Below are positions 9,036 to 33,223 of a stretch of 45,451 bases of DNA, in pieces. Both the position numbers and the translations under genes were made by a program. The notes below the pieces were generated by a model. It saw only the letters and a list, made by a program, of their open reading frames with translations. It had not been told where the DNA came from and did no database searches. This DNA comes from Pseudopelagicola sp. GTDB taxonomy: Bacteria; Pseudomonadota; Alphaproteobacteria; Rhodobacterales; Rhodobacteraceae. Within the stretch, counting starts at the first letter, position 1; each line of letters starts with the position of its first letter. The DNA lies in the NCBI GenBank assembly GCA_026195905.1, contig JAPHRE010000040.1:65363-110813 (forward strand). Direction: 5' to 3'.

Positions 9036-10076
9036 ATGAAACCGCAAATGACAGAGGCTTGCCGGGATCTCGTTGAGGGGGTTCAACACAGGATGAAACG
9101 GGCCAAACGGCAGGCACTGCTCCATCCGCGCGCCGACCGGCAACGCTTCATCTACGACAACACCTTCCGCAACGAAATTGAGGCCGTCGCCTATTTTCTT
9201 GCCGAGAACATTGGCCGCATTCCCGATTTCAATACCCCCGAGACCTACCCCGAATTGATGCGCGGGCAATTCCTGACCCACCCCAACCCGCTGATGTCGA
9301 TCGCTGCCGACAAGATCGCCATGCGCGATTATTGCGATCTATTCGATCTGCCAATCCGTCCGCCAAACCTCATCGCGACATTCGACTCCCCTGATGAACT
9401 CGACCTGCGCGATCTGCCCGAAACCTGCATGATCAAGATCAACGATGGCTGCAAAATGCATATCCTGCACGGGCCGGGCATGCCGGTGACGCCCTTCGCC
9501 TATCGCCTGTTTCTGTATAAATACTGGAATATTGATCACTGGCGGCGTCATGCAGAACTGCATTACCGCGATATTCCCAAACGCATCCTTGTCGAAGAGG
9601 CGCTGTTGCCAATGAAGATGCTTCGCGAGCCGAGTGTGTTCTGCGCTATGGGCGATCCCTATGTGATCATCGATTCAAAACACCGCACCGCCCTCAAAGA
9701 GCACCTGAAGCCGCTTGAATTCGCAAGAGGGCGCTGGCAATCGGCCCCGCTCTCCCATTTTGGAACCAAGGCGGAAACCGATGCCATGCTGCAAACGGCG
9801 CGTCTTTTGTCCCAACATCTTGCCCATTGTCGCATTGATTTCATGCGCCTCGGAGACCGCCTGTGCCTGTGCGAAATCACCATATCGCCAAGCGGCTACT
9901 ACGTTCCCCTCGACAGCCAAGAGCAATCCACATTGCGCACCGACCTGATCGACAGCGACCGCTTTCCGGATATCGTCGACGCCGGGCGCAAGATTGCCGC
10001 AACCCTTGGCCGCTCACCCGATACAAGCTTTGGCCACTTCGCTGGCGACCCCCGTCTCTCCACGGGCGGCCAATAA
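9036..10076 (+). CDS. TupA-like ATP-grasp protein, array member 1
   Basis: A 346-residue protein, first of four tandem paralogues. The likely domain is TupA-like ATP-grasp, named after a protein implicated in teichuronopeptide synthesis; members are thought to form amide bonds on surface polymers. The pattern LTHPNPLMSIAADKIAMRDY, the ATP-binding Lys in IKINDGCKM (about residue 134), LVEEALLP and a late CRIDFM-CEIT pair follow the family's order. The usual NHGSG-like glycine loop is NDGC here. It lacks roughly a dozen residues before the KPLE segment compared with its three neighbours and is the most diverged copy. No signal peptide, so cytoplasmic. An AGAGGG site precedes the ATG. The true substrate is unknown. 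Confidence 0.72.
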   Translation: MKPQMTEACRDLVEGVQHRMKRAKRQALLHPRADRQRFIYDNTFRNEIEAVAYFLAENIGRIPDFNTPETYPELMRGQFLTHPNPLMSIAADKIAMRDYCDLFDLPIRPPNLIATFDSPDELDLRDLPETCMIKINDGCKMHILHGPGMPVTPFAYRLFLYKYWNIDHWRRHAELHYRDIPKRILVEEALLPMKMLREPSVFCAMGDPYVIIDSKHRTALKEHLKPLEFARGRWQSAPLSHFGTKAETDAMLQTARLLSQHLAHCRIDFMRLGDRLCLCEITISPSGYYVPLDSQEQSTLRTDLIDSDRFPDIVDAGRKIAATLGRSPDTSFGHFAGDPRLSTGGQ

Positions 10077-10092
10077 TAGACTAGGATCAAGC

Positions 10093-11181
10093 ATGCCCGC
10101 CTCGACCTCCCCCCCAATGACCGAAGACTGCCGCGACTTCGTTGCCGGGGTGGAAAAGCGCGCCCAAGACGCCACACGCCGGGCGCGTTTTCTACCCCGC
10201 AAAGAGCGTCAGGCCTTTATCTACGACAACACCTTCCGCAACGATATCGAAGCCGTCGCCTATCCGCTGGCGCATGTGCTTGGCCGGGTGCCGGATTTCG
10301 CCAACCCGACCGCCTATTGCGAAAAGATGCGCGGCCTCTATCTCACGCACCCCAACCCGCTCATGGCGCTGGCGGCGGACAAGGTGGATATGCACCGCCT
10401 TTGCGACCACCTCGACACACCAATACGCCCCCCCAAGCTTTACGCCGCCTATGACGACCCCAGCGCGCTTGACCTCACAACGCTGCCGGAAACCGCCATG
10501 CTCAAGGTCAGCGATGGCTGCAATATGAATATTCTGCACGGTCCCGGCCTGCCGATAACGCCCTTCGCTTATCGGTTTTTCCTTTGGAAATACTGGCATA
10601 TCGAACACTGGCGGCGACATGGAGAGCTGCATTACCGCGACATCCCGCGCCGTATTATGCTCGAAGAAGCCCTGCTGCCCATCGAATCCTTGACCGAGAC
10701 CTGTTTCTTCTGCGCCTTTGAGACGCCCTATATGCTTTTGACGAAACATGGCTACGCGCCCACCAAATCCTACGCGACTATGGGCGGCTACCTCGCCCTT
10801 GAAGAGCGCCTGAAACCGATTGAACGCGCGTCCAAAACCAAGAAACCAACCTTTGAGGAGGCCTGCCCCGCCCAACACCGCGACGCAATGTTTGAAACCG
10901 CCCGCCTCATTGGCGCGCACCTGCCAAGCTCCCGCGTCGACTTTATGTTCCACGGCGATCACTGCTACCTCGGGGAAATCACCGTCTCCTCCGCAGCCTA
11001 TGTGATGACCCACGAAACCCAAGAACAGGAAGACCTCAGAAGCAACCTGATTGACGTCTCCCGCCTGCCCGATTGCCTCGCCTCCGCCCGCAAGATCGCT
11101 GCCGCCCTCGACTGGCCCACCGAGCCGAGCTTTGGCCACTACGCCCCCGACGACCCCCGCCTTGCAACCGGGGGGCAATAG
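10093..11181 (+). CDS. TupA-like ATP-grasp protein, array member 2
   Basis: A 362-residue paralogue starting at ATG 10093 after AGGA, 16 bases behind member 1; the frame is open further upstream inside that gene but without a supporting site. Family features are FIYDNTFRNDIEAVAYPLA (42-60), THPNPLMALAADKVDM (85-100), the putative ATP-contacting K138 followed by SDGC, LEEALLP (190-196), RVDFM (281-285) and GEIT (294-297), the last two giving the expected acidic metal ligands. The C-terminus is the shared tail SFGHYAPDDPRLATGGQ. Compared with member 1 it has the longer region around 215-240. It is probably co-transcribed with the other three. Confidence 0.72.
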   Translation: MPASTSPPMTEDCRDFVAGVEKRAQDATRRARFLPRKERQAFIYDNTFRNDIEAVAYPLAHVLGRVPDFANPTAYCEKMRGLYLTHPNPLMALAADKVDMHRLCDHLDTPIRPPKLYAAYDDPSALDLTTLPETAMLKVSDGCNMNILHGPGLPITPFAYRFFLWKYWHIEHWRRHGELHYRDIPRRIMLEEALLPIESLTETCFFCAFETPYMLLTKHGYAPTKSYATMGGYLALEERLKPIERASKTKKPTFEEACPAQHRDAMFETARLIGAHLPSSRVDFMFHGDHCYLGEITVSSAAYVMTHETQEQEDLRSNLIDVSRLPDCLASARKIAAALDWPTEPSFGHYAPDDPRLATGGQ

Positions 11182-11189
11182 ACCACGCC

Positions 11190-12278
11190 ATGTTTGCCCC
11201 CTTGCCCGCGCCGCCAACCCCAGAATGCCAGTCGTTTATCAAGCGCGTGGAACAGCGAAAGCAACAGGCGCGGCGCAAGGCGCTCTTGCTCCCCCGTACC
11301 AAACGCCAAGCCTATATCTACGAGCACACGTTCGAAAACGAGATTGAGGCCGTCGCCTATCCCCTCGCCAAAGCCATTGGACGTGTGCCCAATTTCGCCG
11401 CCCCCGCGCTCTATGCGGAAAAACTACGCAGCCTCTACCTCACGCACCCAAATCCGCTTTTGTCGCTCGTCTCGGACAAGGTGACTTTGCCGCGCTATTG
11501 CGCCTACCTCGACACACCGATCCGCCCGCCCGAACAGATCGCCGCATATGACGACCCAAGCGCACTTGACCTGACAACGCTGCCCGAATCCGCCATGCTC
11601 AAAGTGAGCGACGGCTGCAAGATGAATATCCTGCACGGCCCCGGCATGCCGGTCACGCCCGTCTCCTATCGTTTCTTTCTCTATAAATATTGGCATATCG
11701 ACCACTGGCGGCGTCATTCCGAACTGCACTACCGCGACATCCCGCGCCGCCTCCTGGTCGAAGACGCGCTCTTGCCGGTTGAGGGCATTCGCGAAACAGG
11801 CGTCTTTTGCGCCTTTGGCAAACCCTACATGGCCATCACCAAAGGTCGCTACACCAGCACCAATTTCGGGGCGAGCATCCACGGCATCCTCGCCCTCGAA
11901 GACCGCCTGAAACCCCTCGAATCCTATCTCCACATGCGCCCGCCTCCCTTCGACGAGGCTTTCCCGAAACCGTTTCGCGACGCAATGTTCGAAACCACAC
12001 GACGAGTCGCCGCGCCCCTGCCCCACTGCCGGGTTGATTTCATGATGCTACGGGATCGCTGTGTGCTCGGGGAAATTACGATCTCCCCCGTTGCCCTATG
12101 CGACTATTATCACGACCCCGCACAGCAAAAACTTGAAAGCGACCTTTACGATTTCTCCAAACTCCCCGACACGCTCAAGAAAGCCCGCGAAATCGCCACC
12201 GCCCTTGACTGGCCCACCGAGCCGAGCTTTGGCCACTACGCCCCCGACGATCCCCGCCTTGCGACCGGAGGGCAATAA
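11190..12278 (+). CDS. TupA-like ATP-grasp protein, array member 3
   Basis: A 362-residue paralogue, ATG at 11190 only 8 bases after the previous stop; its ribosome binding site is weak (a G-run about 14 bases upstream), which suggests translational coupling. The frame stays open back to 11073 but that part lies inside member 2 and does not align with the family. Core motifs match the neighbours: YIYEHTFENEIEAVAYPLA, LTHPNPLLSLVSDKV, LKVSDGCKMNILHGPGMP, HWRRHSELHYRDIPRR, CRVDFM and GEITISP. It ends with the same SFGHYAPDDPRLATGGQ tail as member 2. The 3' 125 bases are nearly identical to those of member 4. Confidence 0.72.
   Translation: MFAPLPAPPTPECQSFIKRVEQRKQQARRKALLLPRTKRQAYIYEHTFENEIEAVAYPLAKAIGRVPNFAAPALYAEKLRSLYLTHPNPLLSLVSDKVTLPRYCAYLDTPIRPPEQIAAYDDPSALDLTTLPESAMLKVSDGCKMNILHGPGMPVTPVSYRFFLYKYWHIDHWRRHSELHYRDIPRRLLVEDALLPVEGIRETGVFCAFGKPYMAITKGRYTSTNFGASIHGILALEDRLKPLESYLHMRPPPFDEAFPKPFRDAMFETTRRVAAPLPHCRVDFMMLRDRCVLGEITISPVALCDYYHDPAQQKLESDLYDFSKLPDTLKKAREIATALDWPTEPSFGHYAPDDPRLATGGQ
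12153..12276 (+). repeat. Near-identical 3' end shared by ATP-grasp members 3 and 4 (copy 1)
   Basis: The last 124 bases or so of member 3 match 13258-13381 with about seven differences counted by eye (roughly 94 percent). Immediately upstream the two genes differ strongly. Part of the block (about 44 bases starting GACTGGCCCACC) is also identical in member 2. Confidence 0.8.
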
Positions 12279-12291
12279 GGACAAACACATC

Positions 12292-13383
12292 ATGTCAGGA
12301 CCGAAATTCGCCGCCGAAATGACCTCCGACTGCCGCGCCTTTGTCGACCGTATCGAAGGCCGTGCCCGCACGGCCCGACGTAAGGCGGCACTCCTACCGC
12401 GCGTGAAACGTCAGGCTTTTATCTACAACGCCACCTTCCAAAATGACATTGAGGCCGTTGCCTATCCACTGGCCAAGGTGCTCAAACGCATACCCGATTT
12501 TCTCACCCCCAAAACCTATTGTGAAAAAATCAGGATCCTCTACCTCACCCATCCCAATCCCCTGATGCCGCTCGCGGCCGACAAGGTCGATATGCACCGC
12601 CTCTGCGACCATCTCGACCCGCCAATCAAGCCGCCCGCGCTCTACGCGAGCTTTAACGATCCCCACGATCTCGACCTCAGAAATCTGCCGGAAAACACCA
12701 TGCTCAAAGTCGCGGATGGCTGTAAGATGAACATGCTACACGGCCCCGGCATGCCCATAACCCCATTTGCCTATCGTCGCTTCCTGCGTCAAAACTGGCA
12801 CTTCGATCACTGGCGCAGACACGGCGAACTTCACTACCGAGATATCCCCCGTCGCCTGCTTCTCGAAGAGGCTCTGCTGCCCATCGAAGGGTTAACCGAA
12901 ACCTGCATCTTCTGCGCATTCGGCGCCCCCTACATGACGCTGACCAAAAGCGACTATGGCGCAAATAAACCTGCGGGCAAGAACGGCGGCTATACCGCCC
13001 TCGCGCCACATCTGAAACTACTAGAGCCATATGCCGATTTCGTGCCACAGCCGATGGATTTCGCCCTTCCGCCCCAACACCGTGAGGCGATGCTCAAAAC
13101 CGCCCGCATCCTAAGCGCGGCCCTGCCCAATTGCCGGGTCGATTTCATGTTTCTGGGGGATCAATGCTATCTTGGTGAAATCACCATATCCTCCGCGGCG
13201 CTCACAAAACCCTATGAGGAGCGCGCGAGAGAAGAGCTTCTCGGCTCCCTCTACGACTTTTCCAAACTCCCCGACACGCTCAAGAAAGCCCGCAAAATCG
13301 CCGCCGCCCTAGACTGGCCCACCGAGCCGAGCTTTGGCCACTACACCCCCGACGATCCCCGCCTTGCGACCGGGGGGCACTAA
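12292..13383 (+). CDS. TupA-like ATP-grasp protein, array member 4
   Basis: A 363-residue paralogue, last of the array, from ATG 12292 (13 bases after the previous stop, with AAGGA upstream). The open frame extends back to 12061 inside member 3 and is not part of the gene. It carries FIYNATFQNDIEAVAYPLA, LTHPNPLMPLAADKVDM, LKVADGCKMNMLHGPGMP, LLEEALLP, CRVDFM and GEITISS, then the shared tail ending TGGH in place of TGGQ. The gene is convergent with rnpB; a T-rich stretch between them at 13384-13400 may terminate rnpB. Function is as uncertain as for the other copies. Confidence 0.72.
   Translation: MSGPKFAAEMTSDCRAFVDRIEGRARTARRKAALLPRVKRQAFIYNATFQNDIEAVAYPLAKVLKRIPDFLTPKTYCEKIRILYLTHPNPLMPLAADKVDMHRLCDHLDPPIKPPALYASFNDPHDLDLRNLPENTMLKVADGCKMNMLHGPGMPITPFAYRRFLRQNWHFDHWRRHGELHYRDIPRRLLLEEALLPIEGLTETCIFCAFGAPYMTLTKSDYGANKPAGKNGGYTALAPHLKLLEPYADFVPQPMDFALPPQHREAMLKTARILSAALPNCRVDFMFLGDQCYLGEITISSAALTKPYEERAREELLGSLYDFSKLPDTLKKARKIAAALDWPTEPSFGHYTPDDPRLATGGH
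13258..13381 (+). repeat. Near-identical 3' end shared by ATP-grasp members 3 and 4 (copy 2)
   Basis: This is the counterpart of 12153-12276 at the end of member 4. The sharp edge of similarity suggests gene conversion or recombination limited to the 3' ends. Confidence 0.8.
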
Positions 13384-13404
13384 AAAAGAGGGCAATAAAC
13401 GCGC

Positions 13405-13800
13405 AGAGAGCCTATAAGCCGGATTCTGTCCAAGGGGTTGCCCCCTCTGGATGACCATTCTTCTTGAGAGCGCGTTACCGCGCCCCCTCTAGCTGCCAAC
13501 CCGGACCTCTGGGCCAAAGCGTCCCTGCGGCGATATCCCGAAGGATCAATCCCGCGCGAGGTCCCTATTCGGCATTGCTCCCGGTGGGGCTTGCCATGCC
13601 ACCCCTGTTACCAGCGGCGCGGTGGGCTCTTACCCCACCTTTTCACCCTTGCCCCCGCAAGCGAGGGCGGTTTGTTCTCTGTGGCGCTTTCCCTCGGGTT
13701 TCCCCGGCCGGGCGTTACCCGGCACCGTTGCCTTGTGGAGTCCGGACTTTCCTCGCAGACCTTGCGGCCCCCGCGGCCATCCAGCCCTCTGCGCCTCGCT
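13405..13800 (-). ncRNA. rnpB: RNase P RNA, bacterial type A
   Basis: The catalytic RNA of RNase P, which trims 5' leaders from tRNA precursors. On the minus strand the 5' part contains the conserved GAGGAAAGTCCGGACTCC region (one strand of P4) and the 3' part contains ACAGAATCCGGCTTATAGGC (the other strand of P4 and the 3' end). The distance, about 400 bases, fits an alphaproteobacterial type A RNA. Exact ends are estimates to within about 6 bases. Frames open through this region are not genes. It sits downstream of the amidase gene and convergent to the ATP-grasp array. Confidence 0.96.
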
Positions 13801-29814: not shown

Positions 29815-29945
29815 TATCTGTCTCCTTGTCGTGACCTTCCGGCGAAACCGGGCCGAAGGTCAAGAAATTCGCCCCTCCACCTTTCCCTTACGCGCCCCAT
29901 TCGCTAAGGATTTGGCAACTCTGGGATCAATCAGGACCAAGACAC

Positions 29946-32900
29946 ATGGCGATGGAAAAAACCTTCAACGCAGCCGAAGCCGAAGGCCGCCTCTACGCGG
30001 CATGGGAAAAAGCGGGCTGTTTCACGGCGGGGGCCAATGCGCGCCCCGGCGCAAGCCCCTATTGCATCATGATCCCGCCCCCGAACGTCACCGGCGTTTT
30101 GCACATGGGCCACGCCTTCAACAATACGCTTCAGGACATCCTGATCCGTTGGAAACGGATGCAGGGCTTTGACACGCTCTGGCAGCCCGGCACCGATCAT
30201 GCGGGCATTGCAACGCAAATGGTCGTCGAGCGCAAACTCGCAGAAGACGGTCAGCCCTCCCGCCGCGAGCTTGGTCGCGAGAAATTCCTCGAAAAAGTCT
30301 GGGAGTGGAAAGAGCAATCCGGCGGCACCATCGTCAATCAGCTCAAGCGCCTCGGCGCATCCTGTGATTGGGACCGCACCGCCTTTACCATGTCCGGCGC
30401 GCCGGGCGCGCCCGAGTCCGAAAGCCACGGCAATTTCCACGACGCCGTGCTCAAGGTGTTTGAGGACATGTATGACAAGGGTCTGATCTATCGCGGCAAA
30501 CGCCTCGTGAACTGGGATCCGCATTTTGAAACCGCGATTTCCGACCTCGAGGTCGAGAATATCGAGGTCGCGGGCCATATGTGGCACTTCAAATACCCGC
30601 TCGCCGATGGCGTGACCTATACCTATGTCGAGAAAGACGAGGACGGCAATGTGGTGCTCGAAGAAGAGCGCGACTACATTTCGATTGCCACGACACGGCC
30701 CGAAACCATGCTCGGCGATGGCGCGGTCGCGGTGCACCCCTCGGACGAACGCTATGCGCCGATCGTCGGCAAGCTCTGCGAAATCCCCGTCGGCCCCAAA
30801 GAACACCGCCGCCTGATCCCGATCATCACCGACGAATACCCTGACAAGGACTTTGGCTCCGGCGCCGTCAAGATCACCGGCGCGCATGACTTCAACGACT
30901 ACCAGGTCGCGCGCCGCGGCGGCATCCCGATGTATCGCCTGATGGACACCAAAGGCCACATGCGCGCCGACGGTGCCCCCTACGCCGACGAGGCCGCCAA
31001 GGCCCAGGGCTTTGCCAAAGGCACCCCCTTTACCGAGAACGAGGTCGACGCCATCAACCTCGTCCCCGAAGACCTCCGCGGCCTCGACCGCTTTGAGGCC
31101 CGCAAACTCGTGGTGGATCAGATCACCTCCGAGGGTCTCGCCGTGATGGTCGACCAAAGCACAACCGACGAAGACGGCACCCTCGTGCAAACCCGCGTGC
31201 CGATGGTGGAAAACAAACCCATCATGCAGCCCTTCGGCGACCGCTCCAAAGTTGTGATCGAACCGATGCTGACCGACCAATGGTTCGTGGACGCCGAAAA
31301 AGTCGTCGGCCCCGCCCTCGACGCCGTGCGCGAAGGCCGGGTGAAAATCCTGCCCGAATCGGGCGAGAAAACCTACTATCACTGGCTCGAAAATATCGAA
31401 CCCTGGTGCATCTCGCGCCAACTCTGGTGGGGCCATCAAATCCCTGTCTGGTATGGCTTTGACCTCTCTGCCGAAGGCTTCAAGGATGACGAAGGCGACG
31501 GCGCGCTTGACCTCGTGGAAATGGGCCGCCTGCTCAATGACCAACACCTCCTGCGCGGCGACGAACGCCACCATTGCGCGCATGATTTCAACGCCGTGAC
31601 CTCGAAATTCGCCGATGTGCTCGCCGGTCTGCCGACCCCCCTCAACCACGCCACCGTGGTCGAAGTCGAAGACCGCGCCGCCGCCCGTCACGCGCTGGCC
31701 GAAAGCCTCGCCGCCTACGAGACAACCCAAGACCCGACCAAACTGGTCTATCCCGTCTGGCGCGACCCGGATGTGCTCGACACGTGGTTCTCCTCCGGCC
31801 TCTGGCCCATCGGCACGCTCGGCTGGCCCGAAGAGACCGAGGAACTGGCGAAATACTTCCCAACCTCGACCCTCATCACCGGGCAGGACATTCTCTTCTT
31901 CTGGGTCGCCCGGATGATGATGATGCAACTCGCCGTGGTCAACGATATCCCCTTCGATACCGTCTACCTGCACGGCCTCGTGCGCGACGCCAAAGGCAAA
32001 AAAATGTCGAAATCGACGGGCAACGTCATCGACCCGCTCGAAATCATCGACGAATACGGCGCCGACGCCCTGCGCTTTACCAATGCTGCTATGGCGTCGC
32101 TTGGGGGCGTGCTCAAACTCGACATGCAGCGCATCGCCGGCTACCGCAACTTTGGCACCAAGATCTGGAACGCCGTGCGCTTTGCCGAAATGAACGCGGT
32201 CTACGCCGGTGGGGCTCCGTCCTCCGACATGCCCCATGCAACCGCTACGGTGAACAAATGGATCATCGGCGAAACCGCTAAGGTGCGCGAAGTGGTCGAT
32301 GAAGCCTTCGACGCCTTCCGCTTCAACGATGCCGCGCTTGGCCTCTATGCCTTTGTCTGGGGCAAGGTCTGTGACTGGTATGTTGAATTTGCCAAGCCGC
32401 TGCTCAACGCCGAGGATGACGCCATCAAGGCCGAAACCCGCGCCACGATGGGTTGGGTGCTGGATCAATGCCTGATTATGCTGCACCCGATCATGCCCTT
32501 CATCACCGAGGAACTCTGGAACGTGACCGCAGACCGCGATGGGATGCTCGTGCACGCCGACTGGCCAAGCTACAGCGCCGTCGACCATGTCGACGCCCAT
32601 GCCGACCGCGAAATGAACTGGGTCATCTCGGTGATCGAGAACGTCCGCTCGGCCCGCGCCCAAATGCACGTGCCCGCCGGTCTCAAAATCCCGATGCTGG
32701 TGAGCGAGCTTGACGAGGCAGGCAAAACCGCTTGGGCGCGCAACGAGGCGTTGATCCAGAAAATCGCCCGCATCGACAGCCTCACAGAAGTTGCCGAATT
32801 CCCCAAAGGCACCATTACCGTGACCGTCGATGGCGGCACTTTCGGTCTGCCGCTTGCCGACATCATCGACATCGACGAAGAAAAGGCGCGGCTCGAGAAA

Positions 32901-33077
32901 TCCCTGGGCAAACTGGCCAAGGAACTCGGCGGCCTGCGCGGACGCCTCAACAATCCGAAATTCATCGAATCCGCCCCCGAAGAGGTGGTCGATGAGGCGC
33001 GCGAAAATCTCGCCGCCCGAGAAGAGGAAGACGCCCGCATCCGAAGCGCGCTCGACCGCCTCGCCGAACTGGACTAA
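29946..33077 (+). CDS. valS: Valyl-tRNA synthetase
   Basis: A 1043-residue class I aminoacyl-tRNA synthetase charging tRNA-Val. The HIGH motif appears as HMGH at 53-56 in [13 protein letters not shown] and the KMSKS motif lies at about 686-690 in [11 protein letters not shown]. The editing domain falls between them and the C-terminal coiled coil ([20 protein letters not shown], then [15 protein letters not shown]) closes the protein. It is about 100 residues longer than usual; the excess is an insertion near residues 505-605 just before [15 protein letters not shown] 29946 follows AGGA at a 9-base spacing. A perfect hairpin terminator lies 22 bases after the stop. Confidence 0.97.
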
Positions 33078-33099
33078 CGACCACAAGACCATCCCCTCG

Positions 33100-33132
33100 C
33101 CCCGCCCGCCTGAATAGGTCGGGCGGGGTTTT
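33100..33132 (+). terminator. Rho-independent terminator after valS
   Basis: CCCCGCCCG and CGGGCGGGG pair perfectly over 9 bases around an 11-base loop and are followed by TTTT. Confidence 0.85.
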
Positions 33133-33223
33133 CGGGTCATAGCGTCCCATCAGGGCTGCGCACTTAATTAATTAACATGACAACAATAATGTCCCGCCAC
33201 CGATGCACATAAAGGGTCTCTCG

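Follow-up and report, generated by a model that had tools for sequence, protein, structure and literature searches.

The window analysed here, a 45,451-nucleotide stretch of Pseudopelagicola sp. DNA (contig JAPHRE010000040.1), contains a tandem array of four genes for TupA-like ATP-grasp proteins between rpmG and rnpB. We consider it slightly better than an even chance that the array is an operon of TupA-like carboxylate-amine ligases forming a repertoire of alternative specificities, whose copies are gained, lost and recombined. The evidence consists of direct observations: the intact array, its family, fold and conserved active site, variation of copy number at one site, conversion tracts and purifying selection. 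In the proposed mechanism each copy would keep the ATP and metal site, and the copies would differ in the segments where the acid or amine substrate is probably bound. They would then represent alternative specificities rather than a fixed assembly line, and recombination between neighbours would gain, lose and patch copies, giving each species its own set.

The array at the rpmG-rnpB site

The four genes are intact and lie head-to-tail on the plus strand. Copy 1 (9036..10076) encodes a protein of 346 amino acids (aa) of a short type, in which a hairpin loop is about 12 residues shorter. Copy 2 (10093..11181, 362 aa) was used for structure modelling and is followed by copy 3 (11190..12278, 362 aa) and copy 4 (12292..13383, 363 aa). 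The gaps between genes are 16, 8 and 13 bases. These coordinates bear out the initial annotation, which had described four paralogues of these lengths and spacings in an operon-like layout. Copies 2-4 are 52-55% identical to copy 1, and any two window copies differ at 35-48% of residues. The left border is rpmG (ribosomal protein L33; 8664..8831, minus strand; identified by translation), which is divergent from the array. The right border is rnpB, encoding RNase P RNA class A (13399..13792, minus strand; Rfam RF00010, 293 bits).

Copy number at this site was examined in a genus sample of 25 genomes using an array profile with a match threshold of E 1e-5. Matches were found in 5/25 genomes: four genes in the window genome, eight in Shimia aestuarii AMM-P-2 (G297), five pieces in the metagenome-assembled genome (MAG) P03SST1bin.14 (G307), and one each in uncultured Shimia 4-924 (G316) and in G303, where the match is weak and on a different contig from rnpB. 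The eight S. aestuarii copies form a single tandem row, all pointing the same way, and are spaced by -4 to 14 bases. Four genes are present in the MAG, and a run of N (L034 around 10470-10570) interrupts the third. A frame break in this copy was considered and rejected, the run of N being an assembly gap, and the MAG copy number is therefore given as at least four. The same short sequence flanks the run of N, as though the assembler failed on repeats, and further copies may be hidden in it. The order rpmG-array-rnpB is found in four genomes, those of the window, S. aestuarii, the MAG and the uncultured Shimia, and the rpmG beside the array is 100% identical in the latter three. The survey of related genomes that had been proposed as a check gave same-site copy numbers of 8, at least 4, 4 and 1, with no array at the site in 21/25 genomes.

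The rpmG side of rnpB was compared in 20 of the 21 array-less genomes (all but G295), and none of the 20 stretches gave an array-gene match at 1e-6. The site is empty in G310, where rpmG and rnpB are 186 bases apart (L132 990-1756). In G317 the interval (L133 962-3152) holds a 403-aa open reading frame (ORF) resembling an RsgA-type GTPase, and in G298 (L138 1201-5635) it holds sulfatase-like and AraC-like ORFs, all named by eye with no family search. In the other 17 of these 20 genomes rpmG was not found within the 16 kb taken beside rnpB. The Pfam model PF14305 at 0.001 matched 10/25 genus genomes, including scattered genes off the array site, and the uncultured Shimia has a second PF14305 gene on another contig.

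Family, active site and divergence of the copies

The initial annotation had proposed a hidden Markov model search with PF14305 as a check. Copies 1-4 scored 36.5, 25.0, 25.3 and 28.5 bits against a cut-off of 25, so that 4/4 are at or above it, three weakly (within 4 bits). No further PF14305 match was found in the window genome. Loss of the conserved lysine and acidic ligands had been named as the outcome that would speak against the assignment; numbered as in copy 2, residues K138, G142, D183, E191, D283, E295 and T297 are invariant across 18/18 aligned proteins. The alignment comprised four proteins from the window, eight from S. aestuarii, three from the MAG (the gapped copy was excluded) and one each from the uncultured Shimia, S. 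litoralis and S. biformata. We take the conserved residues to be the ATP lysine and metal ligands, with roles as in other ATP-grasp enzymes. The R-x-D...E-x-T motif is present in 30/34 frames from other PF14305 or profile-matched loci.

An AlphaFold2 model of copy 2, built from the 18-row alignment, has a predicted local distance difference test score of 90.1 and a predicted template modelling score of 0.89. Foldseek matched it to 127 PDB entries at E 0.001 or better. The best 50 of the 127 (E 1.5e-5 to 1.4e-4) are mostly RimK, ArgX, LysX, PsnB, DcsG and Ddl, together with, by title, one phosphoribosylamine-glycine ligase and one phosphoribosylaminoimidazole carboxylase; except where the title states it, we presume that the matches are ATP-grasp enzymes. 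Copy 2 has the ATP-grasp core in common with RimK, ArgX, Ddl and PsnB but differs by its long N-terminal helical part. Identity to these ligases is 8-16%, and over the best 50 of the 127 the template modelling (TM) score is 0.31-0.39 by query length; the fold support is therefore at superfamily level. A viral structure library gave, in second place, a match named TupA-like ATPgrasp (TM 0.55). The model and the conserved residues support a predicted TupA-like ATP-grasp fold and active site.

Searches of the PDB by sequence gave no match at E 10, and the four array proteins had no NCBIfam match at E 1. PADLOC models matched 0/4 copies at E 0.1. Defence and phage protein families were rejected for the array proteins, as no match was found. 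A Pup-like C-terminal GGQ was also rejected, because the final residue is not constant and three copies continue beyond GGQ.

Variation was expressed as mean per-site entropy in blocks of 15 residues. The ATP-binding blocks (aa 136-195 of copy 2) and those near the tail have 0.4-0.9 bits. Two segments of copy 2 are far more variable, with 1.7-2.2 bits over aa 211-255 and 301-315. The first, aa 211-260 (10723..10872, plus strand), covers a hairpin and linker before the catalytic Asp, with 1.6-2.2 bits per block and secondary structure taken from the model; this segment is shorter by about 12 residues in copy 1 and its kin. The second, aa 300-316 (10990..11040, plus strand), lies directly after the catalytic E-x-T motif, with 2.2 bits for aa 301-315. 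Ddl-type ligases hold the acceptor in a neighbourhood matching these segments. Divergence beside the active site suggests different substrates for the copies, and to this extent the sequence comparison agrees with the initial annotation, which had drawn the same conclusion from overall divergence.

The array has diverged more than its surroundings. Flanking proteins of the window and two sister genomes are 79-100% identical (rpmG 100, Bax1-I 97, GatA 95-96, amidase 80-84), and the best full-length array matches are 62-70% identical; the halves of the gapped third MAG copy reach 73 and 77%. Synonymous divergence (dS) between the window and each sister is 0.46-1.05 for five flanking genes, compared with 1.1-1.8 for the nine best cross-species array pairs, two of which pair S. 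aestuarii with the MAG. The array values are rough owing to saturation, and choosing the best pairs should bias them toward low dS. Since they exceed the flanking values in spite of this bias, many pairs are probably not simple orthologues. The comparison suggests turnover of copies, which are probably older than the species and were kept or lost differently, or swapped between lineages. The ratio of nonsynonymous to synonymous divergence (dN/dS) is 0.15-0.33 over 14 full-length array pairs, and the copies are therefore under constraint by purifying selection.

In the tree, where copies are labelled W (window), Sa (S. aestuarii) and M (MAG), the 16 array-type proteins group together (99/98). 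Cross-species pairs W3-Sa6 and Sa1-M1 are supported (100/99 each), as is a clade of W1, Sa1, Sa2, M1 and M2 (100/99), which are the first genes in all three multi-copy arrays. 5/15 inner branches are weak, and there is little clear one-to-one correspondence of copies between relatives.

Gene conversion was assessed by a codon test, which compares the share of identical codons at same-residue sites in a tract and elsewhere. This test was preferred because uneven conservation can inflate a run-of-sites permutation test. Tracts were chosen once the segment comparisons and that permutation test had been inspected, and the p values are uncorrected for this choice. Seven of the nine within-genome tracts gave p<0.05; the other two were the Sa5-Sa6 tail (0.55) and columns 111-160 of W2-W3 (0.29). 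None of 12 between-genome control tests fell below 0.05 (lowest 0.06). Sa4 and Sa8 are identical at 292/300 bases over about the first 100 codons and 55-58% identical in their variable parts; in columns 13-120, 97/101 codons agree versus 91/155 elsewhere (p 9e-13). The ends of copies 3 and 4 (12129..12275 and 13234..13380, plus strand) form a common tract with 35/40 identical codons versus 81/169 elsewhere (p 2.3e-6). The tail of copy 2 (aa 337-362; 11101..11178, plus strand) is homogenised with copies 3 and 4: across the final 24 codons 67-68/72 bases agree (p 0.018 and 7e-4 in the codon test). Fronts and tails are thus exchanged by recombination, with the variable parts remaining distinct. 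Whole-gene homogenisation was rejected; in most segments synonymous codons differ about equally within and between genomes.

Distribution and genomic context

Wider surveys covered family, order, class and phylum samples, all inside the phylum of the window. The array profile at 1e-10 matched 9/295 genomes of the family sample, including that of the window, and a wider profile matched 19/292 of the order sample; adjacent copies in these two samples were confined to the window genome. PF14305 matched 22/385 genomes in the class sample and 27/398 in the phylum sample. Ten other phylum-sample genomes have two or more copies, none of them adjacent and the closest 11 kb apart. Neighbouring PF14305 pairs were found in two other Alphaproteobacteria (G1099:C97:2039-3820 and G1128:C1:1686778-1688854), and the class-sample genome G964 has two weak PF14305 pieces in short frames 170 bases apart. 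Tandem pairs thus exist elsewhere, and among the samples searched arrays of four or more occur only in the Shimia group. We found no report of the array in searches of open-licence papers. A mobile origin was rejected: two peptide patterns found no relative in viral contigs, and copy 2 as query retrieved only eight Brachyspira records at about 24% identity from plasmids and one record at 24% from phages.

The nearest non-array relatives are single array-like copies in Shimia litoralis, Shimia biformata and Amaricoccus (31-37% identity), each near a gyrase A/topoisomerase IV-type gene and not near rnpB. The S. litoralis and S. biformata proteins have the C-terminal GDPxLxTxG tail in common with the array. 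Their genes (L037, L038) share a neighbourhood with SH3-domain and gyrase A-type genes, unlike the array site.

No glycosyltransferase family was found among the 20 window ORFs outside the array that were scanned with Pfam (some unmatched ORFs are probably not real genes), as the initial annotation had stated. It had also held that ATP-grasp genes of this type usually occur singly among glycosyltransferases, and this applies only in part. Surroundings were taken for 20/45 PF14305 places in the phylum sample; L166 was dropped because no gene was called at the match, leaving 19 loci. Neighbour ORFs were called with a simple caller, at most three per side and below 1100 aa, and counted among the 25 commonest families. 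Glycos_transf_1 was the commonest family (10 of 112 neighbour ORFs), followed by ABC_tran (8), flagellin (4) and Glycos_transf_2 (3). In contrast, Glycos_transf_1 occurred in 2/105 neighbour ORFs of Rhodobacterales relatives (105 of 137 neighbours scanned), where most neighbours are unrelated to polymers, and the two tandem pairs depart from single occurrence.

The PF14305 type protein is TupA of teichuronopeptide synthesis in Bacillus halodurans. The array resembles it in the family match and the R-x-D...E-x-T motif, but differs in its low scores, its four genes and the lack of cell-wall polymer genes among those found beside it. The available excerpt of one study describes tupA in the B. halodurans C-125 genome as having no paralog (PMC8153356). 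In Campylobacter jejuni, an excerpted account reports that the TupA-like C-terminal domain of Cj1438 (Cj1438C) amidates glucuronic acid with serinol phosphate or ethanolamine phosphate (PMC11800379). As described there, Cj1438 is fused to a glycosyltransferase in a capsule cluster, whereas the array enzymes, likened to it here without direct alignment, stand alone. A surface-polymer role therefore does not transfer by context.

The array is convergent with rnpB, and with the stop of copy 4 only 15 bases from the RNA gene (window 13383-13399) a terminator would not fit between the two. Array transcription could run antisense to RNase P RNA if it does not end within the array. A scan for promoters and terminators gave none clearly exceeding shuffled sequences, and no terminator between copy 4 and rnpB. 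The sole nearby plus-strand terminator-like site (13646-13667) falls within rnpB, and sites of this kind do not exceed chance. In an upstream DNA alignment of four genomes, conservation lies mainly toward the rpmG side. Elsewhere in the window, two overlapping open frames of more than 1000 codons lie on opposite strands at 29931-33140 (1069 aa minus, 1043 aa plus). The plus frame, which was not scanned, is probably the gene, because the minus frame has no Pfam match.

Alternative readings and significance

Membership of the family makes ATP-dependent amide formation the most likely reaction of the array enzymes. To our knowledge, few TupA-like ligases have a known substrate. More weakly, the product may be a decorated surface glycan or peptide under selection for variation. 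The fullest version of this idea, which we regard as tentative and rather doubtful, makes the array a diversity locus in which the segments facing the substrate vary and gene conversion exchanges the ATP-binding halves and the tails; the outcome would be a strain-specific amide decoration whose variability is maintained by phages, grazers or competitors.

Ligases acting in order, each adding one residue to an oligopeptide or polymer side chain, would also account for the close head-to-tail packing in one operon and for the copy-1 clade leading each of the three multi-copy arrays. The initial annotation had favoured such sequential addition to a surface polymer. Relatives carry 1, 4, at least 4 or 8 copies with little one-to-one correspondence, however, and the best-matching pairs between species seem to predate the split of the species, so that no conserved set of steps is evident. 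Copy numbers of 1, 4 and 8 therefore fit alternative specificities better than a fixed sequence of steps, and we judge ordered addition very unlikely. No polymer gene was found nearby among the window ORFs scanned. If instead the enzymes ligate residues to a protein or precursor peptide encoded elsewhere, as RimK-like or graspetide-like modifiers do, the presence of RimK, ArgX and PsnB among the nearest solved folds would be explained, as would the polymer-unrelated neighbourhoods of most Rhodobacterales relatives. The fold match is only superfamily-level, with TM under 0.4, and the 8-16 base gaps exclude a precursor gene between copies, the flanks not having been searched for short precursors; this reading seems unlikely. 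It is quite unlikely, finally, that all copies have one and the same function and are retained by chance or for dosage. Copy number that varies between relatives, patches of gene conversion and a dN/dS never above 1 would all be expected, but the window copies are 35-48% different and highly variable beside the active site, yet remain intact under purifying selection.

Several observations weigh against the repertoire reading. Variability is also high in the first 30 residues (1.7-1.9 bits), and part of the drop in identity from the N half to the C half is a family property, since the single-copy outgroup proteins of S. litoralis and S. biformata (Sl-Sb) are 41% identical in the N part versus 32% in the C part. 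The variable segments alone are therefore no proof of diversifying selection, and dN/dS is below 1 throughout. The lowest array dS (1.12, W4-Sa3) is near the top flanking value of 1.05, and some pairs may be true orthologues. PF14305 scores lie near the cut-off, and only 4/8 S. aestuarii copies pass. No polymer cluster, partner gene or substrate was found beside the array among the scanned window ORFs, and its site between rpmG and rnpB is not the polymer neighbourhood that marks a surface-polymer TupA. Absence from 21/25 genus genomes means that the function is dispensable.

On balance we retain the repertoire of alternative specificities. The array looks like a fast-changing enzyme repertoire rather than one fixed gene. 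As many as eight intact paralogues with differences around the active site, alongside relatives with one copy or none, offer a panel for mapping substrate choice in TupA-like ligases. If the copies make different amides, surface or peptide chemistry would be varied in these bacteria by gene repertoire, not by phase switching.

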